A DNA stretch of 64,000 bases from Ianthella basta (Eukaryota > Porifera > Demospongiae > Verongiida > Ianthellidae). Below, one piece after another: positions 1-64,000 of this stretch. Position 1 is the stretch's first letter. Each line of letters begins with the position of its first letter. The stretch is from the NCBI GenBank assembly GCA_964019415.1, contig OZ025868.1, forward strand, positions 933,501-997,500, read 5' to 3'. The notes under the pieces were generated by a model, which was not told where the DNA came from, did no database searches, and worked only from the letters and a program-made list of their open reading frames with translations. A program made the position numbers and the translations under genes.

Positions 1-414
1 CTTCCACCTCCTTGTGGATCGAACAAAGGATGGCAACACACACGATTGTTTCTCACTGATAACAGCCATGGTGTCTCCAGTGATAACACTGACTGTTGTG
101 TGTGAGTCACATGCTCCTTACCTTTGTCACTTTACCACACAGTCTTGTACTTTATGCTGCATGTGTTTGCTCAGTACAGTGTAATGACATCATAAAACAA
201 TGGAGTGAATGTTTTGAGTGCAGAACCTTGACTACTACTTGAAGCAGAATTGTCAAACTATGCAGTACTTGCTTACTAGCTATACCTGTCTGTTTGCAAC
301 TCCTGAAAAGTTGCTACTGTGCTCCCCTTTGGTGCATGAAGTAAACTGGACTAACACTCACTTGTAAGATACATTGGATCTGCTGACATGACGAGTCTTA
401 TCACTCTACTTTAG

Positions 415-683
415 ATCCCCCTCAGTTCTCTCCAGCCACTGCCACTCGAACACCAACAGAAGGAGAACAGCACTTTTTTTTTCCTTTGATGCCAACCCAC
501 CTACTACAAATGACAACATCACATTGACCAAGAATGGTGTGACTGTCACTGACACAAGGTTCATTGTCAATGCTACTAGTTTGACTATTGCTGATATCAC
601 TCGTGATGACAGTGGAGTGTACCAGATTATAGCAAGCAATGTTGCAGGACCCAGCAACTTCACTCTGAATATGAATGTGTACT
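415..683 (+). pseudogene. Ig2 exon of copy A, frameshifted
   Basis: Homologous to the copy B exon 21911-22177. It has an AG acceptor at 413-414 and a GTGAGT donor at 684. It is 269 bases where the intact exon is 267 plus or minus codons, and the reading frame changes by one base inside the T9 run at 474-482. Downstream the frame reads ITLTKNGVTVTDTRF and DDSGVYQIIASNVAG, a typical Ig F-strand and G-strand region. Like its homologues it lacks the usual Ig cysteine pair. A homopolymer error in the assembly could mimic this single lesion. Confidence 0.75.
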
Positions 684-1330
684 GTGAGTGTTTCGGTACA
701 CCAAAAGCGGGTACAGCGTTTGTCTGGTTACACATAGCAAAACTGCAGTGGTTCAGGACATTTCAGCCAAGTAGGGCTTCATCAACTCAATAACCGTCCA
801 GCTTATAAGTTATACCACTGATCAGTGATGGTATGGGCACACGATGATTAGATGGTATACACTGTTGTGTCAGATAGACTTTCTTTGTGGCAGTATTGTG
901 TGGCACATTATGACTGACGTGTGTACAAATGTAAAGTACCAAAAGTTAACACACTCCATGAATGTGAAGATTTAACCAATCAATCAATCAATCAATCACC
1001 ACAGCTTATCTCCTATGCAGGAGGTCGCCGCTATCTTTACAGTATTGTCATAGTTCAGTGTAACATCTACGTATGCATAGTCTATAGTCAATATGTAGTA
1101 TTATTCAAATCTGTAGCTAGAAACTGTCAATCCATTTCTTTCTAGGTCTTCCTCTTGGCCTTTTCCCTGCAATTTCCTCAGTGTACACCTTCTTCACTAA
1201 TCTGTTGTCTTCCATCTGCTCCAGCTTCTCCTTCCATGCTCTTTGTTTCCTGAAGTGAGGGCTTCTCAGCTGGCTCAGGCATCAGAAAGGGTTGGTTCTC
1301 TAATACCAGCTTCACAACAGGGTTGAAAAC

Positions 1331-1376
1331 CTTGCCGACGTTTCGACCAGATGCTCTGGTCTTCTTCAGGGCGAAG
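1331..1376 (-). ncRNA. Hammerhead-like ribozyme motif in Penelope pseudo-LTR (P1)
   Basis: Minus-strand reading gives CTGAAGA, a perfect 7-bp helix (GACCAGA/TCTGGTC, loop GCA), then GAAAC and GTC, followed by a stem I formed by GGC/GCC and AAG/CTT with one bulged C. Penelope-like elements are known to carry type I hammerheads in their terminal repeats. There is one extra A between the CTGAAGA box and helix II, so cleavage activity is uncertain. Confidence 0.6.
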
Positions 1377-1421
1377 ATAGGCTAGCGCGAGCACGGATCA
1401 TATTTATAGCCTAGCATCTCA

Positions 1422-2912
1422 TCATGCGCTGTCACCGGAAGCCACATCAAGGGGTGTCACCGGAAGTTGCGGGATTGCCTTCCTCAAGGCGGCCATCCAA
1501 CATCCAGGCAGCTCCAGCCCACCATCCCTGTTGAGGGAGGGGTGGTTCAGCCTGATGTGGATTGCCTCCTTGAGCATCAGTTCTTTGGAGGTCCTGGCTT
1601 GGTCGATCACTGTTGTCTCCTCCCATTTGATTGGATGGTGGTTCTCCCACGCATGTTCTGCAAGGGCTGACTTCTCCAGTGTCCCCTTCTGACAGGCATC
1701 CTGGTGCTCTTTCATTCTTGTCTCGAGCCTCCTCAGTGTCTCCCCAATGTAGATCTCGCCACAGCTGCATGGGACTTGATACACCACCTTGGACTTCTTC
1801 TCCAGCGCCAGTGTGTCCTTCACCTTGGTTAGCATGGAACGTAGAGACAGTCCAGACTTGAAGACAACCTTCATGCCGAACTTCCTACAGACCCGTCTGA
1901 TGTCCTCACTGACTCCTTCCGTGTAGGGAAGCATCACCAGTGGAGGTCTGCGTCCCTCCTCCGGCAGCGGCTCCTCAGTGGTCTCCACATCTCGCCTGGA
2001 AGGAATGGATGAGGAGCGGATGAAGTTACTGGGGTAACCATTCTGTCTCAGCACCTCGGTGAGGTGACACTCTTCCTTCTGTAAGTCCTCCTGCCTGGTG
2101 GTGATGCTCCTTGCTCTGTCGTACAGACATCTGACCAGCCCTCTTTTGACGTGAGATGGATGGTGGGACCGGAAGTCCAGGTACCGGTCCGTGTGTGTGG
2201 GCTTCCTGTAGACAGTGACATCCAAGTTGCCATCATCTTTCCTCTGGAGCAGGGCGTCAAGAAAGGGGAGGCTCCCTTCCTTCTCCACTTCCACAGTGAA
2301 CTTGATGGATGGCCGCACACTGTTGAGGTGGCTCAGGAGTCCTTCCATTGTGCCCTTCTTCACGATGCAGCAGGTGTCATCCACGTACCTCTTCCAGAGT
2401 CGGGGCTTGGTTGGGGCGGACCTGAGTGCCAGTTCTTCGAAGAACTCCATGTACAGGTTCGCCACCACTGCTGAGACAGGGGAACCCATTGCTGCGCCTT
2501 CCCATTGCTCATAGAACTCTCCTCCGTAGCAGAAATAGGTGGACTTCAAGCACGTCTCAAGCAGTTCTGCAACCCTGTCAGGAGAGAGAGTGGTCATGTT
2601 CACCAGCGTTTCATCCCTTCGCAGTCTGTCACGAATGACCTGAACTGCCTCGTCGATGGGCACGTTGGTGAACAGGGAGTATACGTCAAAGCTGACCAGC
2701 ATCTCGTCCTCCTCAACCCTCAGGTCTGACATCACCTCCACAAAATGCTTGGAGTTCTTCACATGTGAGTCCGTCTTGCCTGCCAAGGGAGAGATGAGAG
2801 AGGCGATGTGTTTGGAGAGTTGGTAAGAAGGGGCCCCAATGCATGAGACAATGGGTCTGAGAGGAACTTCTGCCTTGTGGATCTTCGGGAGGCCGTAGAT
2901 CCTGGGAGGTAG
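1422..2912 (-). pseudogene. Penelope-like reverse transcriptase/GIY-YIG, 5'-truncated copy P1
   Basis: Minus-strand coding sequence reading from RIYGLPKIHKAEVP at the junction near 2912 to a stop at 1422. It includes SFDVYSLFTNVP (RT motif A with its Asp), AAMGSPVSAVVANLYME (motif B), the catalytic KRYVDDTCC (YVDD) and FLDALL. The C-terminal GIY-YIG endonuclease reads VYQVPCSCGEIYIGETLRR, then RMKEHQDACQKG and SALAEHAWENHHPI. This RT plus GIY-YIG order defines canonical Penelope-like elements. The first ~340 residues are missing because the copy is truncated at the head-to-head junction. No internal stop was seen, so the copy is probably young. Confidence 0.85.
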
Positions 2913-2923
2913 CGCTAGCCTAT

Positions 2924-2969
2924 CTTCGCCCTGAAGAAGACCAGAGCATCTGGTCGAAACGTCGGCAAG
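2924..2969 (+). ncRNA. Hammerhead-like ribozyme motif (P2, 5' pseudo-LTR)
   Basis: CTGAAGA at 2931-2937; helix II 2939-2945 with 2949-2955; GAAAC 2956-2960; predicted cleavage after C2963 in GTC. Stem III would be only ACGT, which is self-complementary, so pairing between two molecules is possible. Stem I pairs 2924-2926 and 2928-2930 with 2967-2969 and 2964-2966. Confidence 0.62.
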
Positions 2970-6279: not shown

Positions 6280-6325
6280 CTTCGCCCTGAAGAAGACCAG
6301 AGCATCTGGTCGAAACGTCGGCAAG
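6280..6325 (+). ncRNA. Hammerhead-like ribozyme motif (P2, 3' pseudo-LTR)
   Basis: Identical core to the copy at 2924-2969; predicted cleavage after C6319. Its presence in both direct pseudo-LTR copies of P2 would allow release of unit-length RNA from a tandem transcript. Confidence 0.62.
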
Positions 6326-6381
6326 GTTTTCAACCCTGTTGTGAAGCTGGTATTAGAGAACCAACCCTTTCTTTGTTTCCT

Positions 6382-9095: not shown

Positions 9096-9738
9096 AACGC
9101 TGGCAGGCTGTCAATCCAGACAATTTTTACCTAGCACAGCTGGGATCCTCCATTTTGTTTTTGACAGCAGATTTAACCATCAAACATTATTTCATAAACC
9201 CTATGCAATCCATGTAGATTTCACATGTGACTCCTTATGCGCTCAAGGTGTTGATGACTGGAGGCTCTCACACCATTACACTAATTGTCTTGCTATTTCT
9301 ACACTGTTAGGACCATTCCTGATTCTCCGCAAGTAAAAAAAAGTGGTGACCCACAAATATTGTCTCTATTATAAGGTTACATTTGCGTAACGTGGAGTCT
9401 GTAATGTCATAAGTCTGTTATTTATTGCACCACCATGCACTACAGACCCTCCAGAGTTCCCTGTCCCAAGTCAGAATGTGACAAGAAATGCTGCACAAAA
9501 TGAGTTTTATACATTTGACTGCACTCCCAGTGGTGGCAACCCAGCAGTGTACAGTTACACATTCTGAAAGGGAAGTGTTGTAACAGAAGGAGTGAGTGGA
9601 TCAATGGATCAACCCAGTTGTGAGGGGTGATGAAGGGATGTACACTTGTGAAGCAAGCAACACTGTTGGCATGGCAACAGTCACTTGGAATCTTTATGTA
9701 GTAGGTGAGTTTGTATACGAAATGGTTTTATGTAATAG

Positions 9739-9852: not shown

Positions 9853-12800
9853 GTAATATAGATACAAACTTTTCTCTAATCCAATCAAAGTCATCTCCCC
9901 TATCTTCTCATGATGATGTCCACGTCACTGGCAACCAATGACAATGTGAGCGCGGAATAGAAGAACTCTTTGGCACCCACAAACCTTCTCGTTACACTCC
10001 TTTGCCGTCTGTCCTTAATACTACTTCATAGGGAGGTCATTCAACGTGAAAATGAAGGAATAGTTTGCAGCCGCTAGGGCATATTACAGCAGATGCAGAA
10101 TGACTGTGATGACGTCATATAAACTTTACGCGCATTTTGCCCACCACGTACGTCTACGGAATGTAGAATCTCACGCGAGGCAATTGGAATGCTTCACAGA
10201 GATTTAGAATCATCATTTAGATGCCCGTTATCATGGCAATGTGATCTATATACAAATAAATATTAGAATGCATGGTAACTGAGCCCTGTTATATTTATTG
10301 GTTTCACCCTAACATATACAAATGTTCCCACATGCCACTGAACCCAAGATTGGCAAACCCCATGCCCTTCTCAGCCACCCTCCATTGGGACCCTCTCTCT
10401 GATGATTGAGGCTCCTTCCTCCCCCTCACCTACACTGTCACCCTCACCAACACCTTCACCTCCCTCCACTTCCCTCCTCCTGACCAACCTCCAACACAGC
10501 ACACAGTACAGCTGGTCAGCACAGGCCATAAATGAGTATGGCACTGGTCCTTCAGCTGTGGACACCTTCAGAGCACCAGATTCAGGTGTGTAGTGACATT
10601 CCATAGATTATATCTACTATGTATTTGCTTTGTTTGTAAACATGCATGTATAAACATTGTTGCATGGTGGCTAAATGACACCCGATGTTATTTCCCACGG
10701 TCCCGATCATTCACAATGTCAGTGCTGTGGCTCTGAGTCTGGCTTCATTTCAAGTGGACATCACACTCCTCACAGATGGAGGACAGGGTGTGACACTGTA
10801 CACTGAGTGTGTGCATGTGTATACCTGTTAACATTACACTGCAGCTGTACTGTTGGACACCATTGACCATTGATATTGCTACATACAACTCCATAGATTG
10901 AGATCAGAGGAGTGAACTACACAGGTGTTGTTAAGAGTTCACTTCAGAATCAGGTGTCAGTGCAGGTCAGTCAACTTGAGCAGAACTTCACCAAAGGAGA
11001 AAGTCACACAGTGATGGTCTTTGTAGCCAATTCTGTTGGAACTAGCAGCACTCAGTCAACACAGCTCATTGTCCCTTGTGAGTTGTTCAACACTACAGTG
11101 CACCACAAGGTCATACAGGTGCTTGTATGCAACTATACACATGCACACCTAATTCCCAGCTCTCTCTCCTCCATCTACATCTCACTTTCTAATTAGTCCC
11201 TCCCAGTGTCACTGTTCCCCCCACTGAACTGAGCCCCACTGACATCCCAGTGTGCTGTGGAAGTGTACAGCTCAACTTGGCCAACCCAGATAACCCAATA
11301 GATGTCACAGTCCTTGCTGATGACACCCTCCACACTGCCAACCAGGTTGTGAGGGACAGAGACTTCCTCTACATCATGGGACTGCAGGCTGGCACAGAGT
11401 ACTCACTCAGAATTGGTCTGTCCAATGTACTTGGAACAGAATGGTCACATCTCTCCTTGGTGAGCCGTTATGGGCATGTGGGGTTATGTGAACTGGCATA
11501 CCTTCATGACAACTGGACTGAAATATGACATCACCACATGTACATACTTCCTTCATTCCTCCCTCCTTTCATCTCCCCCCCCCCCCCCCCCCACTTACCA
11601 ATTCTTCTATGCCCCCTTCCCCTCCTCAGGCCATCCATCTGTCCAACAAGTTGCTCTGAGACTCACCCCCACTGCTGGTAGTCTGAGGGTCCAACTGACT
11701 ACCAAGTGCCCTGGTACCAGGGAGAGCATCCCCCAGTACTCCATCTCAACGTCAACATCACCTTGCAGCAGACGGCAGACAGGACAGCAGACTCTCCCTG
11801 TTACCAACCTGACCACTCCCGTCAGTGGTAGTGAGAAGGTAGCCCTTGATCCAGGGACCTACTCTGTCACTGTCACTGTCACTAACCAACATGGTGACAC
11901 CACATCTGTACCACAGGAGGTCACTGTACCAACTTGGTGTTTGCAGCTCCACTAATTCCTCATGCTCGCTCCTCACGCATGTGGTGTTGTGTGATGTTAC
12001 TATTTGAGATAGTAGTACATTCCTCACTGCTCTTATAGTTCATCCACAATGGTTTATGTTCTTGCTCAGAGTAATGCATGTCATGTGTGTTTATTGTTTG
12101 ACATTGCATGCTGTGTGCCACTATGGTGCACTGTTGGGGTTTGGTTTCACGATGGCTTCTCCATGCAACTGGCCGAACTGAGATGCTCTTAAGTGTAAGT
12201 TGTTGTTGCTTCTTTAAATTATGGGAATTGTCTAATGTAGTGAAGCCTTGGAAACCTGCTCCATGGTCTGCTCTTGTTGTCATTGGTAATTTGGTGCTGT
12301 GTTTTGTGCATGTTACCTTCATATTAGTCAGTGTTTGTATTGGGCAGTATGTGTCACATGGCTTGTTCCTCTTCACCTACAGTGTCTTGCTCAGGAAACA
12401 CTGACCTCCTCCCAGCTGTGATAGCACTCAGTGCTGCTTTGGTCATTGTCATCCTTCTCCTTTGGCCATTTCCACTATCATCTTCTTATACTTAAGTGAG
12501 TCTTGTCTTTCATCTTGCTACTTGTAGCTAATGGTTTCTATGTGTGCATACACACATGTGAGGGAGATGTACCATTGTTACTCACCCCCAAGCACCTAGT
12601 GCAAAGGGGGTAAAGCAATCATTTTGATATGTCTGTCTGTCAGTCAGAATGTTTGACATTTGCCACTCACGCAGTTGATCTATAACACTATACAACCCCA
12701 CGTCTGAGAAAATAATGCCATCGCGACATTCAGTCATGTCTGTGGACCTGGATTCAATCGAAATGGATGGCTTGCCGAGAAATCCCCGTCTTCAGTGGCA

Positions 12801-14110: not shown

Positions 14111-14949
14111 GGTATGCATATGCAATTGTCCCCCTGGTTCAAGTTTGCATGGTATCTGATAGCTAGTCATGTGTCACATCCATCTTTCGCTGCATGTATA
14201 GGAAACATTTGACAACCACATCTTATGTTTCTGTAGGAAATTGGAAAATGTCTGCAATCCTGAATAATATGAAAGGTCCCAACTCCCATTATGATGAAGT
14301 GGAAATGGGACCACAGAGCCTCCCAAAATCCCATTCCAAATCCGCAACTGAGCTTCAGTATGGAGTGTGTGGAGGGGGTGTGACCAGCACTGATCTTGCA
14401 ATGGAGGAGAACCCTGCTTATGAGTCAGTGGATGTAGCAGCTACAAGGCCGTGAACAAAATTGGAGTAATGGATACATAATGATGTTGTGTCTTCATGTG
14501 TGTGTATCTGCATTTGTGTGAGTTCCTAAGTCTTCCTGGTGCATTAGGTACTGTGTAGTGCTGTCTTTTGAAAATGCTTCAAGAAGCACCCATGGCTAGT
14601 TATAATGTTTATAAATGTATGATTTGTATGCAGTTCACTACTGTAACAGCTAGAGTTATATCACAGTTTGTTGGCTTTGTATTAACTTTATTCAATGCTC
14701 TACTTACTAGCTAGCACTGTCATGGAGAATGAGCTGACTTTGAGTGTACTCGTTGCCATGATAATGGATTCCATTTCTCATCAGTGACTCTGAGTGGTAC
14801 ACACACACTTTGCCAGTCCCATGGGCATGCAGGCAAGTTGTAATAGGGACAGTTCTCTAGTTCTGAAGCTAGCTGTCTGGATAATCATTCTTAAGCTAAC
14901 CTCTAAGACTGACTCTGACCAAGTCTACATGGTGGAATTAACTTCATTC

Positions 14950-44700: not shown

Positions 44701-46516
44701 CGGTGTGATGGTCACACCGAATCTGCCATTATCGCTATTGCAATATTGTGCACTGCCATTTTCTTGTACAAATTAATATGTATATGTACAAATGTATACT
44801 TACAGAAACACGGGGCAAACATTCTCCTTATTAAGACCAAGGTACAAAAATAAGGAAAATGGAGTCACTGAGTAATAGTAATTACCAACATGCAGCAGGA
44901 CGCATGGCACAACGTATAACTGTTAATCACTTTGTAGGTTTGGAAGAGATGTGTGTGTATATGGTATGATGTGTATGCATATGGCTGTGTATGCATATGG
45001 GTGTGTATGCATAAGGTGGCTGGGTGTATGCACAAGTATACAAATTGTGTGTATGTGTAGGGAAGTTGTGTGTATGAATAAAATTATGGGTGTGTATGCA
45101 TGTGGGTGTGCATGCATATGGGGGTTGTGTATATGCATGTACGTAAGTTGTATATAGGGTAGTGTGTGCATAGGAATATCAGGGCTGTAGCACCCAGTCC
45201 GGCCGGTCTGGCCATGGCCGGACCGGTTTTATCCCCAGAGACAAGATTTCTAAAAATCAAAGCTAAGCATTCTAAGACAGTTTCAGATTTGGGGGGGCAC
45301 TAACCAAAGTTTGCAATGCTCTGCTTTCTGATTGGTCTCCATACCGCGTGTGGGTGGCTGAATTTCGCCTAGTTATTAAATGAAACTGTAAGCATGGGGA
45401 TCATCATGGGGACATCTCTATGCTTAAAAGTGCCTGCTGATCTATTCTGATACTCCCACAATATACACAGTCAAGCCACATGCACAGTCAAGTCACATGC
45501 AACAGCTGTTGCTACATAGTGTGAGCATGATTATTGCAAGATCTTGTTGTGACAGCTAAATCAAGACCGATTCAATATTAGCTATTTGTCACATGCAAGA
45601 AGGCCATTGACAGGTTTGCTGCAACAAAAGGCTTTAAGGCTCAGCTTGTTGAACAGATGTGAGTGGGATACTGATAGTCTTGAAATGCCCCAGATTTGAT
45701 CTTAGAGCATCCAGATTTCAAAAATTTCCTGGGGGGGCATGCTGCCAAACCCCTCTAGAAGGTCAGGCACACTATGTCATGGCCGGACCGGTTTCTAACC
45801 TTGTGCTACGGCCCTGAATATGGAGTGATGTGTGCATTGTTGTCAGGCTAGCCAGAAGTCTCTTGGTCTTGTGTTGCTGCTCCTTCTTGAGGGGACACTG
45901 GTTGATCCATCAGTGCTGTTGTGGCAGGGACTGCTGAATCGGTTCCATCTTACCAAGCTGGAAGGCAGCACTGCTTGGCTCTGTTCTCGATCCACTTCTG
46001 CTGCCATGTAGTAGCAGGAGGGGAATGTTCCCTCCACAACCCGCCAGCCGTTGGGGAGATTCGACCCTCATCTGCCCGTCGAAGTCCAGCAAGTGGGGGG
46101 GGGGTTGAAAGGACCCCCCACTTGCCTAGGAGTTCCGCCTGACAGTGCCACTCAAAACCCTGTTAAGCTGTAAAAGATCAGCTTAGCTGCTAGCAAGCAC
46201 AACCCTATAACCCTAACCCAAGTCACATCTGTCTTTCACAGCATGTAAAGTGTACCTGCAGAAAACATCTTGACAATCACATCTTATGTTTCTGCATGTA
46301 GGAAGTCAGAAGTTGTCAATCCTGAAGGATGTGAAAGGTCCAAACTCCCATTATGACCAAGTGGAAATGGGACCACGAAACCTCTCAAAATCCCATTCCA
46401 AATCCACAGCTGAGCCTCAATATGAATTGTGTGGAGGGGGTGTGACCAGCACTGATCCTGCAATAGAGGAAAACCCTGCTTATCTGTCAGTAGATGTAAC
46501 AGCTGCAAAAACATGA
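20797..46516 (+). CDS. Ig/FN3 type I membrane receptor, copy B (intact)
   Basis: Nine exons: 20797-20851, 21280-21576, 21911-22177, 42373-42636, 42752-43036, 43123-43226, 43325-43505, 43933-44049, 46302-46516; total 1785 nt, 594 aa. All have AG/GT borders and all introns are phase 1 except one phase 0 inside FN3-2. The leader MEGVSTSHSCLRLILL... is completed in exon 2 (AIFGISVAQ). Ig1 has its cysteines (INC, MYDC); Ig2 lacks the pair; Ig3 has FDC and YTC. Then FN3-1 (SATLQWDPPSDDGG), FN3-2, a membrane helix (LLPAVIALSAFSVIITLLLS) and a tail with SHYDQV and EENPAY. A surface adhesion or recognition receptor is likely; ligand unknown. It lacks the FN3-3 and FN3-4 exons of copies A and C. Intron 3 is 20.2 kb of mobile DNA. 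Confidence 0.8.
21127..21207 (+). repeat. 27-bp tandem triplication in copy B intron 1
   Basis: Three near-identical units beginning AACTTAGCCTTGGGTGCGCT at 21127, 21154 and 21181, with a fourth partial at 21208. It lies about 70 bases before the exon 2 acceptor and is absent from the related introns at 16400-16480 and 55900-55980. Confidence 0.85.
22845..22900 (+). repeat. TAGTCT-type element left end
   Basis: TAGTCTTGCGTGCCAGACTC begins where copy B intron 3 stops aligning with copy A (after ACATTGTAT). It resembles the ends of the elements at 25630, 37436, 38628 and 44271. A matching right end and duplication were not found, so it may be truncated. Confidence 0.4.
23351..23632 (-). pseudogene. 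LINE 2 C-terminal zinc-finger tail
   Basis: Reads KDEQKRRCEARQTSSD, then a C-x4-C...H-x4-H finger (ALNHAGLVNHQRQTH) and a second CQFCHQTF...HNHERFC finger, ending in a stop at 23351. Such tails bind the element RNA or target DNA in several APE-type LINE families. It is separated from the reverse transcriptase by a stop and a frame change at about 23633-23671. Confidence 0.65.
23845..25752 (-). pseudogene. LINE 2 reverse transcriptase
   Basis: N-terminal part 25752-25033 ends QLQDGKAPGADGISAELLKL; two stops lie near 25015-25036; the second part 24912-23845 reads MSIPSKVFARILLNRI, CGFRKGRGCTDHLFFLR, CFFDLRKAYDSVNRS (motif A), VGVKQGCVLAAILFNLFF (motif B) and the catalytic EYADDMALI (YADD). A thumb and linker follow, out of frame, in 23920-23672 (RHLRLLGHIMRM). 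The upstream part joins the endonuclease region cleanly once the TIR element at 25630-26411 is removed (WITDEVKNLSRKKME). Confidence 0.78.
25630..26411. mobile_element. TAGTCT-type TIR element M1, 782 bp, with RecQ-like fragment
   Basis: Target-site duplication GTTCTTCAC at 25621-25629 and 26412-26420; removing element and one duplication restores LINE 2 coding. The TIRs are about 92 bp with two mismatches and start TAGTCTCGTCCCCAGCCCAC. A 9-bp duplication with long TIRs fits Mutator-like elements best. The interior holds a helicase fragment (25852-26150) and no transposase. Confidence 0.85.
25852..26150 (+). pseudogene. RecQ-like helicase N-terminal fragment in M1
   Basis: ATG at 25852 (MAASMGEVSFPRLGARLP). 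Residues about 40-75 read PIDQEEAILDFLKRRDAFVF followed by LPTGTGKSLCFASLP, which is the Q-motif region plus Walker A (GTGKS) of RecQ family DNA helicases. Sequence after about residue 80 no longer resembles helicase and runs into the right TIR. It is a captured, truncated segment, not an enzyme. The larger relative is at 38750-39750 in element M3. Confidence 0.65.
26569..27529 (-). pseudogene. LINE 2 endonuclease region
   Basis: Reads RLACWNVQSAVSLSV (Asn box), LLVLSESCWQGHG (Glu), VIAVYAPTNPVSS, VVILGDFNARVGTDTNTWH, LLDFCATNKLLITNTWYQH, and after a frame change near 26810 MIDYILVSAKYC and the catalytic SDHELVIS. This is the full order of an apurinic-type endonuclease domain that nicks target DNA. 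The frame break and a later loss of frame near 26580 show decay. Confidence 0.75.
27640..27690. repeat. CA-rich microsatellite
   Basis: Interrupted CACACA tract just past the 5' end of LINE 2. Confidence 0.7.
27700..29500. other. Intron DNA without recognised genes
   Basis: Part of copy B intron 3. Minus-strand 28270-27908 holds an open frame of 120 codons (starting MSLIVPKTTAALYAILFSWK) without a recognised domain. The stretch 29000-29270 has a GC-rich block ending in GCAAAACGCTAAACGC, a string that recurs at about 33823-33837. I see no splice-supported exon. Confidence 0.4.
29507..30083. mobile_element. TA-flanked TIR element, 577 bp
   Basis: Ends CCGTATAATTTCTAATATAG and its inverted counterpart (30059-30083) are flanked by TA at 29505-29506 and 30084-30085. 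Inner repeats such as GGGCGCTTACAATTGGAA and GGGTGCTTCAATTAGAAG mimic the TIR, as in the pogo-like elements of this window. The TIR theme (CCGTAT...TA..GGCGCC) resembles the pogo copies at 4370 and 47193, so a related TA-targeting group is likely. No intact transposase frame. Confidence 0.7.
30299..30384. repeat. Polypyrimidine CTT/CCT microsatellite
   Basis: Strand-biased CTTCTT then CCTCCT tract. Open frames across it give Arg/Lys or Ser/Pro runs, which are repeat artefacts. Confidence 0.9.
30868..31110. repeat. Fold-back repeat with about 66-bp arms
   Basis: Left arm 30868-30933 and right arm 31044-31110 are inverted copies (for example ATTTTCTACAAAAATTGTAA in the left arm) with few differences, separated by about 110 bp. 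Weaker pairing continues outside the arms (AGAAACGAGAAATAA with TTCTTATTTCTC). It would form a long hairpin as single strand or RNA. No coding content. Confidence 0.8.
31501..31984. repeat. TIR repeat with internal tandem units (CAGTGCAAGTTAC family)
   Basis: Starts CAGTGCAAGTTACAATAT and ends with its exact inverted copy. The interior holds five partly tandem units starting at about 31503, 31586, 31665, 31740 and 31839, each GTGCAAGTTAC... plus GTGCCAGTAGAGTATCTG and GGTCATAGAAAAAGACCACC. Related units recur at 33912-34060 and 36009-36085. No duplication of target was recognised. Confidence 0.7.
32251..32625 (+). repeat. Three diverged tandem units of about 128 bp
   Basis: Units begin at 32251, 32380 and 32506 with CCATTTTGTGACTAATTAA or variants, followed by AATCC(T/C)(G/A)CTAATGACATGA and GTCCACCAAGT. 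Divergence between units suggests an old array. Confidence 0.7.
32830..32864. repeat. Short hairpin after a poly-C run
   Basis: AGCAGGAAAGCC and GGCTTTCCTGCT form a 12-bp stem with an 11-base loop. A C14 run lies at about 32802-32815. Confidence 0.6.
33497..33840 (-). other. Unrecognised open frames
   Basis: Minus-strand frame 33816-33514 (MKMTNFLIQHFGLPPFDSVV..., then SELEKYHCGSHVFRI) is 100 codons and not obviously a repeat artefact. No domain recognised, no upstream exon found. It may be a fragment of a mobile-element protein. Confidence 0.25.
34116..34306. repeat. Long hairpin with about 85-bp arms
   Basis: Left arm 34116-34201 and right arm 34221-34306 are inverted copies with a few mismatches (ATGCAAGTACAGTGTTGGTG in the left arm). 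The loop is about 19 bases. The arms contain the GCAAGTTG core of the CAGTGCAAGTTAC family found just upstream (33912-34060), so the hairpin may be a relic of that family. Confidence 0.8.
35170..35750. other. Gene-free intron DNA
   Basis: A GC-richer block at about 35380-35640 has no recognised coding or repeat signature. The rest is unique-looking intronic sequence. Confidence 0.35.
35754..35869. repeat. Palindromic hairpin element, 116 bp
   Basis: Arms of about 42 bp start TTATAACACCTCCTTTTCGG and end with the inverted copy (GGAGGTGTTATAA), few mismatches, around a GC-rich loop CTCCCCCTCGGGTGCTTCGT. The flank is AT-rich; a duplication is not distinguishable. Probably a MITE. Confidence 0.8.
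36009..36085 (+). repeat. CAGTGCAAGTTAC family, solitary unit
   Basis: Nearly identical to 31501-31580. An inverted copy of the end (GTAACTTGCACTG) lies just upstream at about 35972-35984, giving a head-to-head arrangement. Confidence 0.65.
36576..36760 (+). repeat. Dispersed repeat family R, copy 2
   Basis: Shares GCATAATGATATGCA, GCAACCACAATGTTTATGAG, CCAAAACTTCCCCCGGGCCC with the copies at 16872-17060 (inverted) and 38165-38460. Confidence 0.6.
37436..37822. mobile_element. TAGTCT-type TIR element M2, 387 bp
   Basis: Target-site duplication GGCTTGATT at 37427-37435 and 37823-37831. Left end TAGTCTCGTCCCCAGCCCAC matches M1; the right end is the inverted copy with one difference in the first 18 bases. 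Internal GGTGGTCTGGCACATTTGCT has an inverted partner before the right end. Non-coding, presumably mobilised by another family member. Confidence 0.85.
38165..38460 (+). repeat. Dispersed repeat family R, copy 3
   Basis: Contains CTAATGATATGCAC, GCAACCACAATGTTTGGTGC, GCCAAAACTTTACCCTGTGG, GGCCCAAACGGACAG and ends near GGCTCGCCCCAATAAAGAGA. It is the longest of the three copies seen. Confidence 0.6.
38750..39790 (+). pseudogene. RecQ-like DNA helicase, decayed, inside M3
   Basis: Frames in order: KKERTKAMERATACLGEVAR (38800s), then after a frame change QQEAILKFVPGTDVLVVL with Walker A PTGSGKSICF (GSGKS), AVVIAPLKSLMKDQV (motif Ia), QLVFIRPEMLG, then after another frame change AFVIEEAHCIKSWG (motif II, Glu in place of the usual Asp of DEAH) and EFRRVFKKLGEA. 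The second RecA-like domain is suggested by PRTIIFCQRYKDS, which is cut by the Penelope fragment, and CTSIYDYFRSELG. Helicases of this family unwind DNA with 3'-5' polarity; this copy cannot, because of frameshifts and stops. Confidence 0.72.
39598..39656 (-). mobile_element. 59-bp Penelope pseudo-LTR fragment with its own target-site duplication
   Basis: Minus-strand match to the pseudo-LTR from ACGTCGGCAA to CCCTTTCTG with several substitutions, flanked by TATAAGGATT at 39588-39597 and 39657-39666. It starts within a few bases of the predicted hammerhead cleavage site and ends near the pseudo-LTR 3' end. Confidence 0.75.
40446..41130. other. Gene-free intron DNA
   Basis: Low-complexity-free sequence with small inverted motifs (for example CCAGCCAGTG variants near 40950-41010) but no recognised gene or element. 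Confidence 0.4.
41133..41570. mobile_element. MITE-like element, about 438 bp
   Basis: Ends TATATGTGAGC(T/G)... followed by TGAGAAAAGGGACCACTTTG are inverted repeats; the 20-bp core at 41149-41168 and 41531-41550 is perfect. The surroundings are TA repeats, so a TA or longer duplication cannot be defined. No coding. Confidence 0.7.
41650..42237 (-). pseudogene. LINE 3 C-terminal fragment (CR1/Jockey-like)
   Basis: Minus-strand reading gives MEYSVPVWAPHKQKHIDTTE, KVQRQAARGVSKARQD, and later RSHPYSLAIFQSC, NAFRFSHFVNAPFIWNQLPP and SLYTFQFASARYR. This is the conserved post-RT tail of CR1/Jockey-type LINEs, where the element is cited as EKVQRRAARWV and NSFFPRTIREWNSLP in related proteins. The catalytic domain is absent. 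Confidence 0.7.
44271..44323 (+). mobile_element. 53-bp TAGTCT-type micro-element M4
   Basis: Begins TAGTCTTGCGTGTCAGCACC and ends GGTGCGTGAGTCTA, an imperfect palindrome around CCCCCTTCTGCAGGGGG. Flanked by TGCATAAGGT at 44261-44270 and 44324-44333 (9 or 10 bp). It is in the copy B intron before the tail exon. Confidence 0.65.
44641..44718. repeat. Nested hairpin cluster
   Basis: CGCTTACACC/GGTGTAAGCG forms one stem; GTGTGACTATCACACC and GGTGTGATGGTCACAC are each palindromic and pair with one another around it. A cruciform-prone relic of a small TIR element is likely. Confidence 0.6.
44945..45170. repeat. GTGTATGCATATGG-type microsatellite
   Basis: Degenerate array of GTGTGTATGCATATGGG-like units directly left of the hAT-like element; its units resume as GTGATGTGTGCATTG after that element. 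Confidence 0.75.
45180..45816. mobile_element. hAT-like non-autonomous element, 637 bp
   Basis: Ends CAGGGCTGTAGCAC and GTGCTACGGCCCTG are inverted repeats, with GGCCGGACCGGTTT also inverted inside. CAGGG..GTAG ends are typical of hAT elements. Flanks share GAATAT but an 8-bp duplication could not be fixed because of the neighbouring microsatellite. No transposase. Confidence 0.65.
45840..46140 (-). other. Possible remnant of a mobile-element protein plus hairpin
   Basis: Minus-strand frames near 46090-45843 contain WQQKWIENRAKQCC and MDQPVSPQEGAATQDQETSG, suggesting a decayed coding segment of unknown type. A 12-bp stem GCAAGTGGGGGG/CCCCCCACTTGC lies at 46089-46125. Confidence 0.3.
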
Positions 46517-46519
46517 ACA

Positions 46520-55402: not shown

Positions 55403-55447
55403 TGAGATGCTAGGCTATAAATATGATCCGTGCTCGCGCTAGCCTAT

Positions 55448-55493: not shown

Positions 55494-55623
55494 GTTTTCA
55501 ACCCTGTTGTGAAGCTGGTATTCGAGAACCAACCCTTTCCCCCATAAATGCTACTGAGTATTATGGTCCAAACATCATCTACAAGAAAGTGCACGTGATA
55601 GTTGCGTGAGGAGCGCAGGCGGT

Positions 55624-55712: not shown

Positions 55713-56278
55713 ATGGCTGGAGTCTCAGCTTGTCAAATGTTTTAAGATTCTTTTCGTCGGCGCAGGTACGAGTGTTTGACCAATCGAGTTGCCCTAGCTG
55801 CGTAATAATTATTATGAACATAGTAGCTGCATTTGCCACTTCGCCTTCACTCGGCGAGGACCAACGTCGCTGCAGAATATACGTTTCACCTTTCACGGTA
55901 TAGCTATATATCTGCACTGACCATTCTGTTTTGATACCACGTTCTCTAGTTCATTGATTGTCATCGTCTGTATTTTAATAGCTTTGTTTGGCATTTCAGT
56001 CGTCCGAGCAGTCACCATCCACCCTGTGGGAGCTGTCACTGCTGTGGAAGGAAGCACCCTCACCATCAACTGCACTGATGGAGTGAATATTGGGAACGGC
56101 CTGGTCCTTCGTGAGAATGGTGTTCAGTTAATTGCAAACAACACTCCTCCTACTGAAGTGAATGGTGTGGTGCGTATCTATCACCTCCCTGTGGATCGGA
56201 CAAGGGATGGCAACATGTACGATTGCGCCTCACTGATAACAGCCATGCTGTCTCCAGTGATAACGCTGACTGTTGTGT
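55713..56278 (+). pseudogene. 5' remnant: leader exon and Ig1 exon of an A/B-type receptor
   Basis: Leader exon 55713-55765 has a 2-base deletion and a TAA after MAGVSACQMF. Ig1 exon 55982-56278 is intact (297 nt, phase 1 both sides) and close to copy B exon 2, with AVTIHPVGAVTAVEGSTL, INCTDG and MYDCAS. No homologous Ig2 exon of this type follows before copy C begins. It could still splice into copy C exon 58474 by phase, but without a working leader. I read it as the front end of a lost copy. Confidence 0.65.
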
Positions 56279-56464: not shown

Positions 56465-56469
56465 TTTCA

Positions 56470-57640: not shown

Positions 57641-57641
57641 A

Positions 57642-58883
57642 ATGATATCTATGTATGTATTTCTTCTGTTGGGGAGCTGTGGTAAGTAGGGTGTGGATAG
57701 AGTTCGAGTAAGGTGGGATCTCGGGGTATAGCTAGCTAGCTGAAAGATACGCAGCGCAGCTTTCCATTGTGTACATTGAGAACGTGCTCCCTCGTTGTGT
57801 TGTGTTCTGCGCTGGCTTGGGACAAACCAAGAAGCCTCTTTACCTACACACAAGGGGAAGACGCCCATTGTAGCTAGGTGACTACATGGCAAGCGAGTTC
57901 TTTCTTAGCTCCTAATAGGTGTCGAGTTATAATTATATGGCTAAATTCTCGCTGTGTAACTATAGGAACAGTACCTTAAGCTGCTAGAGGCCAACGAGCT
58001 ATAGCTATATTTTCGTATACATCTGTAGTTTATAGTTCTGCACGCAAACAAGTCCTCAATGACAATATTATAATTGTTAGGATTTTAGTTTGTTTCAATC
58101 ATTTATTATTATTATTTGCAATATAGTATTATTCTACTTAGTCTATTTAAATTGCATGATCAATAAAGTGATCACCAATAGGATTTCATGAGTAAAAATT
58201 GCTGTGCAGACACTACACATATCTGTATGCCAATTACTGTACTGGTGCGGTGTGTGCATGTGCATATTGTGTGAGCACATATGTGCACATGTGCTTTATG
58301 GCATATGAGAAATTATACATAATTAATATGTTATGCACAAACCTCCAATATACATAACATCAATCTTTGCAACTACTGGTCCAGACTAAGGGCATTTAGT
58401 ACTCAGATGTCTCAGTACTCGATCTCCTATCATCCATATTGCCCTAGAGTACTGCCAGTCTCTCCCCCTTCAGTGTGTAGTGCTCAGTTGGTGTTTGTGA
58501 CTCTCCCCACCAACCAGACAGTGACCGAGGGAGGAGACGCCAGCTTCAGTTGTAGTGTAACCGTCAACGGTAATCCCGACCCTGTGAGTTGGCAGTTGAG
58601 GGGAGGAGAAGGAAACATTGATCAAAGAGTAGCAGTGAGCACAACTATTGTACCAGGAGTGGACAGTGTAGAAGTCACAGGATCGTTCAGATCTCCAATA
58701 ATATTGAGGAATGTCTCTAGTTCCCTTGATGGTCTGTTTGTGTCCTGCATTGGAGAGAACGCACAAGGCATTCTTTTGGAGCAGACTGATCCACCGGCAG
58801 TTCTTGGTGTACTCTGTGAGTTGTTTGAGATCTTGTGTGCCTTGGTGTCACAGATTTAAGCAAACTTTTCCATACTATTGTAT

Positions 58884-58933
<50 letters not shown>

Positions 58934-61900
58934 TTACATGCAGTTGCTCCAGAGTACATTGCGTCTACAGACCCAACTACCATTTTGGAAGGTACAAACT
59001 TCAACTACACCTTTCAGCTTGCTGCCAATCCTCCTCCTGACAGCTTCATGTGGACCAGAAACAACCAGACCATCAGTGACAGCAGGGTGACTGTGTCAGT
59101 GAATAGCATCACCATCACGGACACAGTGAGGAATGACTCTGGAGTATACCAAGTCACCAGTTCGAATGCAGCAGGAGTGGGATCTGCTAGCTTCACTCTC
59201 AATGTCCAGTGTGAGTACAACCAGTTGTGGTCCTTTTCACTGTCTTGTGTTCAGGTACAACTAATGTTCGTGTTCCCTCCATTTCTTGCAGACCCCCCAG
59301 AGTTTGCCATCACTACTTCACCCCAGCACTCTCAGTTGATAATTGGAGCTTCCTTCTCCTTGAACTGCACGCTGAGTGCTGCCAACCCTCCTGTTGACTT
59401 TGTGTCAATACGAGTGGACGGGTCACCTGTCACTAGTGGTGACACTGTCACAGTGACAGACAATGTCCTCACCATCCCCTCAGTCCAGAGGAGCCACAGT
59501 GGGAACTACTCCTGCACTGCAACCAACACAGCTGGGAGTGCAGTCATCTATACCAACCTCCTGGTAGTAGGTATGCCATGTACTACATATACAGTGGCTG
59601 TTCAAACTTCACTTTACACTACTTGTGTGCATGAGCTTCCTGCCCTTCATAGTTTGCACTGCAGTGTGCATTACCATCGTGTGTACAGTTGTTCGTGCTT
59701 TGGTGTGCTTTCTTCCTTCACATCATCTCCATACCACTTTTCCCTTCATCCTGCACTCTAACGCCCCCCCCCCCCACACTCACACTTACCCAGGTCCCCC
59801 CAGTGCACCTCGTGCTGTAGCTGCATCTAATGTGGGTCCTTTCACTGCTCAACTGACTTGGTCTGCACCAGAAGATGATGGAGGGGTCAGTGACCCTTCT
59901 TGGGACCCAGCAGTGGACGGCAGAGAGAACAGGCCTTACCTCACATACAATGTCACACTGACCAATGGGACGGTCACTACCATGGCAACAACACGTAACC
60001 TGTCCCTCCCTCTGTCCAACCTCCAACACAGCACAGCCTACACTGTGACTGTGGAGGCTGAGAATGTGTACGGGAGGGGACCACAGGGGACTACTGCTTT
60101 CACCACACTGGACTCTGGTGAGTAATGTGTGAGTGGTTGGCTCACACATTACTCATGGCTTTGACATATTAAATTTTACTGACCTATAATATTTAGTATA
60201 GCTTCATTGCCCCCCCCCCTCCCTTCCGGCTCAGTTCCCATCATTGACAGTGTGGAGGTAGCAGTGCTCAGTCTGTTTGAGATGGAGGTGAACATCTCTC
60301 TGCTCACCAATGGAGGACAGAGTGTGACACAGTACACAGTGAGTTGGTTGACTGTGTGTGTGTTCATTCAAATTAGTAGCAGATGTGTGCAGGGATGCAG
60401 GGATGCTCATGTAAGAGTGGTGTCACTGTCTTATGGACCATGGTGCATGAGCACAGGAGAGCTCCAGAGAGATGCCCACAATCCATCAGATCTCACTGGT
60501 CCTCTTTTGTGTCAATGCAGTGCTGTCTCAATGTTGGACAGCTTCCCTAACTGTAGTACTGTGTATTTCAGCATTTTGTACACTTTTTGAAGTACTGTGT
60601 ACGTAGTACCTATCTCATGATCATACTGACACTAAACTGAGCACCTTTATCATGTACGAACAACATTTATGCCTTTTGGAGGAGTGTTCTAATGATGCTG
60701 ATGTTCTGCACATTGCACATCTTATTATATTAAACGTAACGCACGTTTTCAATGTTCGGGATAAACTCCTTCAATTCTGGACGAAACGTCACGAAACGTT
60801 TTTGGATTACGAAGAGGGCATAGTGAGAGTAACCTTGTCAAACCAAAATTGTATTGGTTTAACATTGTTCCATCTGAGTTCTTGCCACTTTTACGGTCAC
60901 CACCATATCTAAGAGATAGGGAAAGATCGTGTTTCGTTGTTCGGAAATTCCTCCTTCAATTTAATTTCTACCAATCTTCACCAAGCTTGGAAGAGTGTAT
61001 CACGGAAAGGCAGGGGGTGACCTAAGGTGGTTGGCACCTTCACTGCTGAACTGCTTTAGATGAAATGGATTAACATAAGTAGATTCTGTATGTAATGAGT
61101 TTTTTGGAGCGAGTCTATGGAATGCTCTTAATCAAATGGACAGTTTGGATTGGTTCAACGCTCAAATCACCTACTGTAGACTGGGAACCCACCCGAAGGA
61201 GGATTATCAGCTAGTTTTAAGAATAATTATACTAAAGTGCTTGGTATACTGATATGCTTGCCTGCCATTTCGCTGTCAACCACTCTCTGCTAAAACGCTT
61301 CGACAACAATTCTCTAGCCTAACAATGAAAGGTCAAATAAATGGGGCACATATCTTATTACATCTATGCGTGCATTTTTTATAAATTATGCTAATCTAGT
61401 ATTACCATGTGCCCAACTGACAAGTAAACATGCCTTATCTCATTGAACTACAGGTTGAAGTGAGAGGGACGAACTACTCATTTCCCAGTTCAGAGCAGAT
61501 GAAGGTCTCATTACTTGTCAACCAACTGAGTGTGAACTTCACCAAGGGAGAGAGATTCACTGTGAGGGCGTTTGCAGTGAACGCAGTGGGGACAAGTGAC
61601 CCAGTGTCTGTGGAAGTGATTGTTCCTTGTGAGTTGTGGACACTTATGTAAGGGAATTGAAAGAAGAATTGCCATGTTTGTGTCAGTTCACATCCTGTGA
61701 ATTGCTCTTACCCCTTATGCAGTCCCTCCCAACATCACTGCTCCCCCCACTGAAGTGGATCCTACTACAATCCCTCTGTGCTGTGGAGGTGTAGCGCTCA
61801 ACCTGGAGAACCCAGATGACCCCATAGATGTCAGAGTTCATGTTAATGGCACCCTCCACTCTTCCAATGAGGTTGAAAGAATTGGCAATCTCCTCTACAT

Positions 61901-63206
61901 CATGGGACTACAGGCTGGCACAGAGTACTCACTAAATGTTGCACTGTCCAACATATTTGGAATAGAATGGATCAACACTTCGGTCAGACCTCACCTTGGT
62001 GAGGGAGTGTTACAGGGTACATTACACACTTGTACACATACACATGTCCTTCATTCTCCATTTACTACATCCCCCCAAGGCCACCCATCTCACTCACTCT
62101 CCATCCCCTCAGGCCACCCCTCCACCCCACAAGTGACCCTCACCCCCACTGCTGGTAGTCTGAGGGTCCAACTGACTACCATGTACCCCGGTACCAGGGA
62201 GAGCACCCTCCAGTACTCCATCTCAACGTCAACATCACCTCGCAGCAGACGGCAGACAGGACAGCAGACCCTCCCTGTTACCGACCTGACCACTCCCGTC
62301 AGTGGTAGTGAGGAGGTAGCCCTTGGTCCAGGGACCTACTCTGTCACTGTCACTGTCACTAACCAACATGGTGACACCACATCTGCACCTCAGGAGGTGA
62401 TCATACCAGGTCAGTACATTATACCTCTCAACACATGTATACAATTGACTGCAGTTGAGTATCAGACTACAGGTACAAGTATGTGTTCCTGTACATGTCT
62501 CTCTCTCTCCAGCTGGGCCTGTTCCCGCTAGCACTGGTCTCATCATTGGTGTGGTGGTGGCCGCTGTCATTCTGGTCCTCCTCATCATTGTGGTTGTCTT
62601 CATCATTGTACTGATCTACATGAAACGCAAGGACACAAGTGAGTCACTGGGGTGAGGTGAAGAGGCAGTGTGTGCAACATGAATAGCTAGTTAGCTGTGT
62701 AGGCCTGTACAAATATAGCCTTGTGTTGCTCTGCATACCACACACCATGTGGTTCATAAGGCTGACACGTACTGGACACATGTATAATTATGCATTCATG
62801 TTATTGAGTATGTATGCATGTGCTTACTGTATATGTCCGAATGGAGGCCCGGTCTCTATTCAGAAATATACGGTATGTGTGCCTGCAGATGAAAGGAGTG
62901 TGTCTGTAGCTGTTGTGTATTTTCATCTTGGCAGGATCTGGTGGAGGTGACTTCATTTACGATAGTCCCAGTGGAGAGTTGAAAGGTCCTGACTCCCATT
63001 TTGAAGAGGTGAAGTTGGAAGCTAACCCAGCTTATGTGGAGGTAGCGAAACCTGCATCGACAACTGAGCCTCAGTATGAGGAATGTGGAAGGGGCGTGAC
63101 CAACAGTGGAGATGTCACCATGGAGGAGAACCCTGCTTATCAGTGTGTGGCAGTAGTACACTCAGACAAGATAGATGAACCAGCCTATCAGAATGTAACT
63201 GCACTG

Positions 63207-63209
<3 letters not shown>
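57642..63209 (+). CDS. Ig/FN3 type I membrane receptor, copy C (intact)
   Basis: Eleven exons: 57642-57681, 58474-58815, 58944-59210, 59292-59570, 59794-60117, 60235-60338, 61454-61628, 61723-61998, 62113-62409, 62513-62638, 62935-63209; total 2505 nt, 834 aa. Leader MISMYVFLLLGSCGVCSA|Q is split by a phase-1 intron with a GTAAGT donor. Ig1 (FSCSV...WQLRG...VSCIG), Ig2 without the cysteine pair, Ig3 (LNCTLS...YSCTATN), then four FN3-like modules (SAQ... AQLTWSAPEDDGG; IIDSVEV; IPLCCGGVALNLENPDD; TPTAGSLRVQLTT). Helix GLIIGVVVAAVILVLLIIVV, stop-transfer MKRKD. The tail has FIYDSP, EANPAYVEV, EENPAYQCV and EPAYQNV, so NPxY-type docking or endocytosis motifs. Probably a surface recognition or adhesion receptor; ligand unknown. 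Confidence 0.82.
58888..58932. repeat. CA microsatellite in copy C intron
   Basis: Uninterrupted CA tract about 12 bases before the acceptor of the Ig2 exon (58944), where length change could affect splicing. Confidence 0.95.
60339..61453 (+). other. Enlarged intron inside copy C FN3-2
   Basis: Equivalent introns are 98 bp in copy B and about 92 bp in copy A; here it is 1115 bp. The extra sequence has no recognised TIR or coding domain; a small frame at 60652-60912 has no known match. Confidence 0.5.

Positions 63210-63210
<1 letters not shown>

Positions 63211-63258
<48 letters not shown>
63211..63258. repeat. GT microsatellite after the copy C stop
   Basis: Begins immediately after the TAG stop at 63207-63209, so it lies in the 3' untranslated region. 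Confidence 0.95.
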
Positions 63259-63261
<3 letters not shown>

Positions 63262-63597
63262 ATGTATAATTATGTGTTTTTGTACTTGATTTGCTCCTTC
63301 TCTATGGGCTATATACAATATCATGCATGACATTGTATCCATCGGTCCTGCTATATACTGTATAGCTATATACTGGCTACCATGCATAATTGGTGGCACT
63401 TGCTAATGGGAGGAGCTCCCCCCCAACACAGTGGTGCTGGTGGGTGGAATGATCGTAGGGAGTAGTAATTCTGCAGTTGTCCACACTGTTGCTGTAGCAA
63501 TGCTAGTACCAGTGTGGAACAGAACAACATTAGTTTTTGGCTGGCTGTTCACTCTCAGCGGGTCGTCAGTGCCAGTGACTCTGATCACTGGTACTAA

Positions 63598-64000
63598 CTT
63601 GACTGGGATAGAGATGGTGACAGTCAGCGACGGGCTAAGGACTATGGTACCTTTAGTGGAGTGCAGAGAGAAGAGGATGGGAAGAGGTTGGTGTGTGTTG
63701 CAGTCTTTTCTTCAGGTATTATCTCTAAACCAGCAACACTTGCTATTCAGCGTGAGTTGTGATCATAAGTTGATGTATACTCACAATAATTAGCTATAGC
63801 TATAGATTACTAGTCAATATCATTATTTGTGTTCATAAAATTATCTGCGGTCAACCCAAAGTGTATGAATTGTGTTCCCTTTGTCCTCCACCATTGTTCC
63901 CCATGGTTCTCATGAACTACTGCTGCTACAACACCAACAGAGGAACAGCTGTTCACATTCTCTCTTCTACTTGAAGCTAACTCTAGTGTTGACAGCATCA
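63598..64000 (+). pseudogene. Fragments of a further Ig/FN3 copy (D), runs off window
   Basis: A piece ending at about 63751 reads DYGTFSGVQREEDGKRLVCV, then FSSGIISKPATLAIQ, an Ig C-terminal half, followed by GTGAGT in phase 1; upstream in the same frame is a TAA at 63595-63597. A second piece at about 63900-64000 reads TTPTEEQLFTFSLLLEANSS, matching the start of the Ig2 exons of copies A and B (TPTEGEQ...), preceded by an in-frame TGA at 63913-63915. Both look damaged, but the window ends before this can be judged. Confidence 0.5.

Follow-up and report, generated by a model that had tools for sequence, protein, structure and literature searches.

Does a run of Ig receptor genes in the sponge Ianthella basta belong to a recognition locus, and by what route do its members come to differ? 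Sponges discriminate precisely between self and non-self grafts, as the Amphimedon graft study states (PMC5450542). Aggregation-factor work aside, no polymorphic receptor locus for this discrimination is named in the open-access literature that was searched. The DNA analysed here, called the window, is a stretch of 64,000 nucleotides (C1:933501-997500 of a 209-Mb genome, in one assembly), which a sequence-only reading had described as a tandem array of Ig/FN3 receptors with live and dead copies and as a possible recognition locus. The assembly's mitochondrial contig, whose COX1 uses TGA and which has an ATP-synthase-c gene, is itself indicative of a sponge.

Receptor copies in the window

Copy C (57642-63209, +) was described as intact and is so: its coding sequence of 2505 nt is open from Met to stop and encodes 834 aa. 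It has the leader, Ig domains, single transmembrane (TM) span and tail of an Ig superfamily type I receptor in one open frame, with leader and TM assigned from hydrophobic sequence alone. Its exons are as follows.

57642..57681 (+) leader exon
58474..58815 (+) first Ig exon (C type)
58944..59210 (+) second Ig exon
59292..59570 (+) third Ig exon
59794..60117 (+) FN1 exon
60235..60338 (+) FN2a exon, enters in phase 1 and leaves in phase 0
61454..61628 (+) FN2b exon, enters in phase 0 and leaves in phase 1
61723..61998 (+) FN3 exon, no Pfam match
62113..62409 (+) FN4 exon, nearest the membrane and homogenised array-wide; RSRR motif flanked by two predicted strands
62513..62638 (+) transmembrane exon, A class
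62935..63209 (+) cytoplasmic tail exon with five tyrosines and two NPxY motifs

In copy C, the three Ig exons and FN1 have Pfam support, and FN2 falls under the cut-off; Ig1, FN3 and FN4 exons gave no significant Ig or fn3 match in Pfam. The receptors would follow a type I plan: behind a leader come three Ig domains and four FN3-like ones, two of which are assigned from their position and on weak evidence only, and then a single TM span and a short tail rich in tyrosine. The symmetric phase-1 exons attributed to the copies are borne out by the exon borders read.

Two 5' remnants and a further partial copy had also been placed in the 64 kb. They are present, one of the remnants as an Ig1 fragment at C1:932995, just left of the window, and the rest beside copy C.

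55713..55777 (+) 5' remnant, broken leader-like stretch (2-base gap, then stop, from alignment)
56000..56278 (+) 5' remnant, Ig1 exon with an open frame, 5' of copy C
63530..63682 (+) further partial copy, Ig0 fragment

Copy B (20797-46517, +) was likewise called intact, which holds in part: it lacks the FN3 and FN4 exons, and just one of the two TM acceptors leaves its frame open. When FN2b is joined to the closer acceptor, at 43945, a TGA arises at the junction, and acceptor 43933 keeps the frame (by inspection of the sequence).

20797..20851 (+) leader (signal peptide) exon, from hydrophobicity and phase
21298..21576 (+) Ig1 exon
21911..22177 (+) Ig2 exon
42373..42636 (+) Ig3 exon
42752..43036 (+) FN1 exon
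43123..43226 (+) FN2a exon
43325..43505 (+) FN2b exon, with FN3 and FN4 missing 3' of it
43933..44049 (+) TM exon, B class
46302..46517 (+) tail exon, short class

Sequence like the copy B leader occurs at seven other places in the array, some of them lacking the ATG. The 20-kb intron before the Ig3 exon of copy B contains reverse-transcriptase-like open reading frames, seen by inspection.

Copy A (1-14454, +), the Ig1 exon of which begins left of the window, is dead, as had been stated, with frameshifts, stops and acceptors that were not found; by inspection, its TM exon is frameshifted as well.

1..100 (+) end of Ig1 exon (tblastn with copy C exons; full match C1:933337-933600)
417..679 (+) Ig2 exon, frameshifted
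9448..9703 (+) Ig3 exon, stop and frameshift
10332..10610 (+) FN1 exon, two stops, acceptor not found
10703..10804 (+) FN2a exon, acceptor not found
10897..11076 (+) FN2b exon
11199..11447 (+) FN3 exon
11632..11931 (+) FN4 exon, 91.9% median identity to other array copies
14269..14454 (+) tail exon, short class

Extent of the receptor complex

The three copies within the window all lie on the plus strand, as had been reported, but the array is not confined to 64 kb: further copies, sought on both sides, are present, and the window is part of a receptor complex that measures about 1 Mb, larger than the array first noted. Array matches occupy both strands between C1:855 kb and 1,858 kb. All 27 Ig1 matches fall within one interval of about 1 Mb, and 65 of the 90 tail-exon matches genome-wide lie inside C1:0.930-1.854 Mb, again on both strands; FN4 exons with at least 86% amino-acid identity number 46 (45 with at least 92%) and are spread over C1:0.855-1.675 Mb. 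Genes were read for 12 near copies (three of them incomplete as read) and three distal ones, the sequence covered being 264 kb less 42.5 kb. An assembly artefact is rejected because the divergence between copies ranges from several to tens of percent and they sit on both strands. The tandem array of live and dead Ig/FN3 receptor copies is supported and strengthened.

Homogenisation of the FN4 exon

The membrane-proximal FN4 exon has a median identity of 96.6% across 23 copies over 810 kb, but its flanking introns align poorly: the adjoining 70 bases are 68-69% identical, where a 180-base stretch gives 63.5% after shuffling. Exon identity also exceeds flank identity in FN2b, Ig3 and FN1, and sharp exon edges are therefore not peculiar to FN4. 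Its identity is independent of distance (rho 0.10, p 0.13, 231 pairs) and of strand, whereas an unlinked copy on C13 shows only 79%. Between B-type and C-type genes, median pS is 0.051 in FN4 and 0.447 in the other alignable ectodomain exons, the comparators being FN2a and, where it could be aligned (two of three C-type genes), FN3. FN4 has the lower value in 24 of 24 B-C pairs; with all types taken together, it does so in 51 of 55. Its median pS is 0.038-0.073 by type, and its pN/pS of 0.62 is like that of other ectodomain exons. Low synonymous divergence that is independent of distance and absent from the unlinked copy (n=1, C13) is what concerted evolution of FN4 by gene conversion predicts.

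The introns on the two sides of FN4 follow different parts of the gene. Over 11 copies, with the tail label of g855 and g1077 taken from the TM exon alone, the upstream intron tracks ectodomain class (p 0.0045) and not tail (0.56), the downstream intron tracks tail class (p 0.0015) and not ectodomain (0.92), and the FN4 exon itself tracks neither (0.95 and 0.088). The downstream flanks of 12 distal array copies mostly match every near class poorly. As judged from these sequences, ectodomain sets and tail classes are re-paired at FN4.

The RSRR loop is present in 20 of 24 FN4 copies. AlphaFold models of FN4 from two sequences give a seven-strand sandwich at low confidence (pLDDT 67.1; 44.6 for Ig1, also from two sequences), and the PDB matches of the FN4 model are weak and mixed: unrelated sandwiches appear beside the FN3 domains of LAR, NCAM and neogenin, and no match has E <0.001.

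Mosaicism, selection and cytoplasmic tails

Many exon genealogies conflict, along the gene and within exons. Ig2 distances are uncorrelated with those of Ig3, FN1, FN2a, FN2b and FN3 (rho -0.20 to 0.02; ceiling 0.73-0.82), and 5' and 3' halves are discordant within Ig2, Ig3 and FN1. Concordance is also seen: among 15 exon pairs without FN4, four are positive (Mantel p <0.05), namely Ig3-FN2b, FN1-FN3, FN2a-FN2b and FN2a-FN3. Sawyer-type sum tests, which uneven constraint can inflate, are significant for Ig2, Ig3, FN1, FN2a, FN3 and FN4 and not for Ig1, FN2b or either tail. In one gene (L057), Ig2-Ig3-FN1 are of B type, FN2 is of C type (97% and 93% aa) and the tail belongs to a third class. 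Paralogue pN/pS is 0.31-0.84 in ten exon classes, none with an interval wholly above 1, and positive selection as the main driver is rejected, the ratio being below 1 in every exon class tested.

Among 12 aligned tails, 11 have NPxY in a MEENPAYQ-like context and 10 at least one ITIM-consensus site. An Ig receptor tyrosine kinase is rejected because the copy C tail stops after about 90 aa without a kinase match and the distal tails end in stops (15 of 15 read, each inside the exon).

Probable recognition receptors and alternative explanations

The complex probably encodes germline recognition receptors whose diversity comes from short-tract exchange, FN4 being the junction that re-pairs ectodomains with tails. 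The shuffling would have taken place in the germline, through gene conversion or unequal exchange; the distal Ig domains may bind variable partners, either self or kin molecules or microbes, and binding would be reported through phosphorylated NPxY and ITIM-like tyrosines, so that the complex as a whole would act as a germline-diversified recognition system. The earlier proposal of a recognition locus stands as a reasonable inference because of copy number, mosaic exons and tyrosine-rich tails; allorecognition would be a plausible role, and no exon-wide positive selection is seen, pN/pS being below 1. That microbes or symbionts are the targets instead of conspecific cells, a sub-case of recognition receptors, is a sizeable possibility that we rate below even, since a germline repertoire, tail classes and pseudogenes would suit immune as well as allorecognition receptors. 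A sponge histocompatibility complex, in which a constantly homogenised FN4 would be a recombination platform pairing any Ig ectodomain with any signalling tail and new specificities and outputs would arise together by germline exchange, is a speculative and rather unlikely form.

Ordinary tandem adhesion or tissue receptors, kept as dosage duplicates and mosaic as a by-product of tandem repetition, would need no recognition role; the similarity of the Ig exons to I-set proteins (titin, Dscam, contactin, Robo) and the low pN/pS agree with this, but the number of members, the several ectodomain and tail classes, their re-pairing and the several broken copies and fragments make it unlikely. Instead of conversion, the similarity of FN4 might stem from strong functional constraint, or from whole genes having duplicated in a recent burst. 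Constraint could be expected of a membrane-adjacent exon with an RSRR loop, and other exons show sharp edges too; yet synonymous sites are depleted as well at a pN/pS that is not low for the array, the unlinked copy has diverged, and whole-gene duplication should also have reduced the pS of neighbouring exons, which is high between types, so this account is improbable. Least credible, and very doubtful, is cassette use in the manner of chelicerate sDscam or clustered protocadherins, with the orphan Ig1 and Ig0 exons as alternative 5' ends. An Ig1 exon that is open and has consensus splice sites does lie 1.4 kb upstream of the copy C leader, phase-1 exons permit joining, and an Ig0 fragment follows an A-class tail in several copies. 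Against it, the leader-like stretch of this 56-kb Ig1 is broken, which is why its use as another first exon for copy C is rejected; the Ig0 fragments cover a domain only in part; and intact genes each have their own TM and tail.

Comparison with known systems

Sponge aggregation factors, which are Calx-beta proteins, are candidate sponge recognition molecules. The array differs from them and such an identity is rejected: among the 150 Calx-beta matches scored of 969 candidates, none lies in C1:0.85-1.86 Mb, and those listed are mainly on C11, C6, C20 and C23.

The complex resembles the Hydractinia allorecognition complex (Alr), a cluster of dozens of IgSF single-pass receptors, pseudogenes included, in being a large linked IgSF cluster with live and dead copies. 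It differs in phylum, in the FN3-like domains between Ig and membrane and in the homogenised membrane-proximal exon; the likeness described is one of cluster anatomy. In vertebrate KIR/LILR-type complexes, Ig receptor genes are linked, their exons are shuffled, conversion takes place between genes, tails fall into several classes and there are pseudogenes. The sponge complex is like them in these features and departs from them in its Ig plus FN3-like ectodomain and NPxY-rich tails. Chelicerate sDscam and vertebrate clustered protocadherins likewise draw receptor diversity from many tandem units. Judged from gene anatomy, 5' cassettes joined to shared constant 3' exons are not the arrangement here: fully read genes own their TM and tail exons, and diversity lies between genes.

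A mapped Ig receptor complex of about 1 Mb with tyrosine-rich tails offers a concrete interval for grafting genetics, and it brings exon-scale mosaicism, with a single homogenised exon joining recognition and signalling parts, to a lineage that branches near the animal base.

Genome and receptor copies of the window

The genome searched comprises 209,087,449 bases in 96 contigs, with the window at C1:933501-997500. On contig C96 (21,233 bases) are a COX1 gene, in which nine in-frame TGA codons are read as tryptophan under table 4, and a match to ATP-synthase subunit c; atp9 in the mitochondrial genome is a mark of demosponges or homoscleromorphs, and on this ground the organism is taken to be a sponge.

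Copy C begins with a leader exon and continues with three Ig exons, five exons that together encode four FN3-like domains, and one exon each for the TM span and the tail; its coding sequence of 2505 nt is open and encodes 834 amino acids, in agreement with the sequence-only reading that had described it as intact.

57642-57681, plus strand: leader exon of copy C

The introns of this copy are in phase 1 throughout, except for the intron within FN2, which is in phase 0. Pfam recognized Ig in all three of its Ig exons and fn3 in FN1, with FN2 under the cut-off; the exons labelled Ig1, FN3, and FN4 gave no significant Pfam Ig or fn3 match. Copy A is dead, as had been stated. Copy B lacks the FN3 and FN4 exons, and its description as intact by exon arithmetic hinges on the choice of acceptor, since the nearer acceptor at the FN2b-TM junction leads to a TGA, and an alternative TM acceptor twelve bases upstream, read from the sequence, keeps the frame. 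Sequence similar to the copy B leader exon occurs at seven further array places, and a 29-base minisatellite of approximately 17 copies (window 19816-20324) lies directly upstream of this exon. Penelope-like-looking elements, judged from their ORFs, are present at window 1251-6372 and 53172-55540; their inverted arms are 99-100% identical, and the insertions are therefore recent. The right-hand element stops approximately 170 bases short of the broken leader of the Ig1 remnant at 56 kb.

Extent of the array

The search for further copies outside the window, which had been proposed as a check, was productive over approximately 1 Mb of C1. The copy C tail has at least 90 matches in the whole genome, at least 65 of them in C1:0.930-1.854 Mb, both counts being lower bounds because 150 of 162 candidates were scored. 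The 65 array matches (45 plus, 20 minus; median spacing 8.4 kb) are not a gene count, as some are short or contain stops. All 27 Ig1 matches in the genome fall in C1:0.859-1.858 Mb, with 51-80% identity, the query itself excepted; 46 of the 69 FN4 matches lie in C1:0.855-1.675 Mb at 86% identity or more, 45 of these at 92% or more. The sequence read comprised 264 kb including the window, minus 42.5 kb, together with 31 short segments from other places, of which five lie outside the array. Twelve weak tail matches lie in a second interval on the same chromosome (C1:13.87-14.33 Mb, from which stretch L056 was read), which may represent an older sister array. A long minisatellite at the left end of the sequence read (L025 and L024, C1:833.5-846 kb) has frames of HTS/LPHF-type repeats that stay open for up to 998 codons.

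Modular composition and the FN4 junction

The 12 near genes, named by their C1 position in kb, are classified into B type (Ig1 or Ig0, Ig2, Ig3, and FN1-FN4) or C type and are also split by tail class, A versus B; g855, g1007, and g1077 are incomplete as read. Both tail classes were found with B-type ectodomains (A tail in g1026 and g1031; B tail in g1018 and g1064), and the distal gene L057 joins B-type Ig2, Ig3, and FN1 to a C-type FN2 (97% and 93% at the amino acid level), so modules have been re-paired at more than one place. The L057 tail belongs to a third class, common to L058 and the quite different L059.

The membrane-proximal FN4 exon has a median DNA identity of 96.6% (23 array copies, 253 pairs), and the 70 bases on either side have 68-69% aligned identity against 63.5% for a shuffled 180-base stretch, a baseline only approximate for flanks of this length. 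In comparisons of B-type with C-type genes, FN4 has a median pS of 0.051, versus 0.447 for the cross-type alignable exons (only FN2a in copy C; both FN2a and FN3 in g1007 and g1052), and is lower in 24 of 24 pairs; with all types pooled, FN4 is lower than the other alignable exons in 51 of 55 pairs. FN4 identity neither declines with distance nor changes with strand, and is 79% for the unlinked C13 copy and 92% for dead copy A. Among 11 near copies, likeness in the intron upstream of FN4 follows the ectodomain class (p = 0.0045) and not the tail (0.56), that in the downstream intron follows the tail class (p = 0.0015) and not the ectodomain (0.92), and the exon itself follows neither (0.95 and 0.088); for these labels, the tails of g855 and g1077 were assigned from the TM exon and g1070 was put in its own class. 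The simplest account of this pattern would be repeated conversion or exchange through FN4. Two observations temper this account: exons other than FN4 are likewise more alike than their introns, so rapid intron divergence is general in the array, and in the 12 distal array copies the downstream flanks are for the most part a poor match to every near class. FN4 contains RSRR, which we take to be a furin-like motif, in 20 of 24 copies, placed between predicted strands three and four in a low-confidence structure model.

Exon genealogies and selection

In ten B-type genes, including broken g1070, the pairwise distances of one exon are often a poor predictor of those of another, and the nearest neighbour of a gene shifts between exons. 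Ig2 against Ig3, FN1, FN2a, FN2b, and FN3 gave rho of -0.20 to 0.02 under a split-half noise ceiling of 0.73-0.82; FN2a and FN2b, the halves of one domain, gave 0.63. Linkage between exons is only partly broken, because four of the 15 non-FN4 pairs are positively correlated at p < 0.05 (Ig3-FN2b, FN1-FN3, FN2a-FN2b, and FN2a-FN3). The 5' and 3' halves of Ig2, Ig3, and FN1 are discordant (rho -0.11 to 0.03; random halves 0.56-0.59), and FN4 has no usable genealogy (split-half -0.11). The sum form of the run-length test, which is open to inflation by uneven constraint, was significant in six of ten classes (Ig2, Ig3, FN1, FN2a, FN3, and FN4) and not in Ig1, FN2b, or the two tails.

Values of pN/pS among paralogues came to 0.31 (A tail) and 0.35 (FN2b), with the eight remaining classes at 0.54-0.84; no class has an interval entirely above 1, and 1 falls inside the intervals of FN1, Ig3, and FN4. 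Ratios of medians are all below 1 in 17 classes, including FN2a (0.85) and the C-type exons. Divergence among the paralogues therefore gives no sign of exon-wide positive selection.

Cytoplasmic tails

The tail alignment covered twelve sequences, three from near genes and nine from the 15 distal ones. Eight are long, with at least five tyrosines and, in seven, two NPxY; the four short tails (g1018, copy B, L049, and L054) contain between three and five tyrosines, with neither the first NPxY nor the C-terminal tyrosine present. The NPxY in a MEENPAYQ-like context is kept in 11 of the 12, and 10 have at least one ITIM-consensus site, with none in copy C. We presume these motifs to be putative binding sites for PTB or SH2 proteins. 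Outside the array, a related tail exon (L055, C4:2313600-2314100) repeats NPAY / EPQYAECGG-like units within a single open frame, which gives the impression that signalling units were multiplied.

Relation to sponge recognition systems

Calx-beta domain arrays on C11, C6, C20, and C23 (150 of 969 candidates scored) are possibly aggregation-factor-like genes; the Calx-beta matches on contig C36 are spaced as in part of C6, and this contig is perhaps an unplaced haplotype. C12:1688-1713 kb has many FN3 units on one strand, and the recurrence of equal-score pairs 2266 bases apart suggests a recent block duplication.

The receptor architecture and exon mosaic of the complex are well supported, recognition is its likeliest purpose, and allorecognition in particular may be considered a live and testable option. 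In its main text, the Amphimedon graft study (PMC5450542) does not use the word 'immunoglobulin', and a comparable sponge complex was not found in the portion of one open library that was searched. Sponge IgSF proteins have been tied to adhesion and recognition in a 2025 review (PMC11999971).
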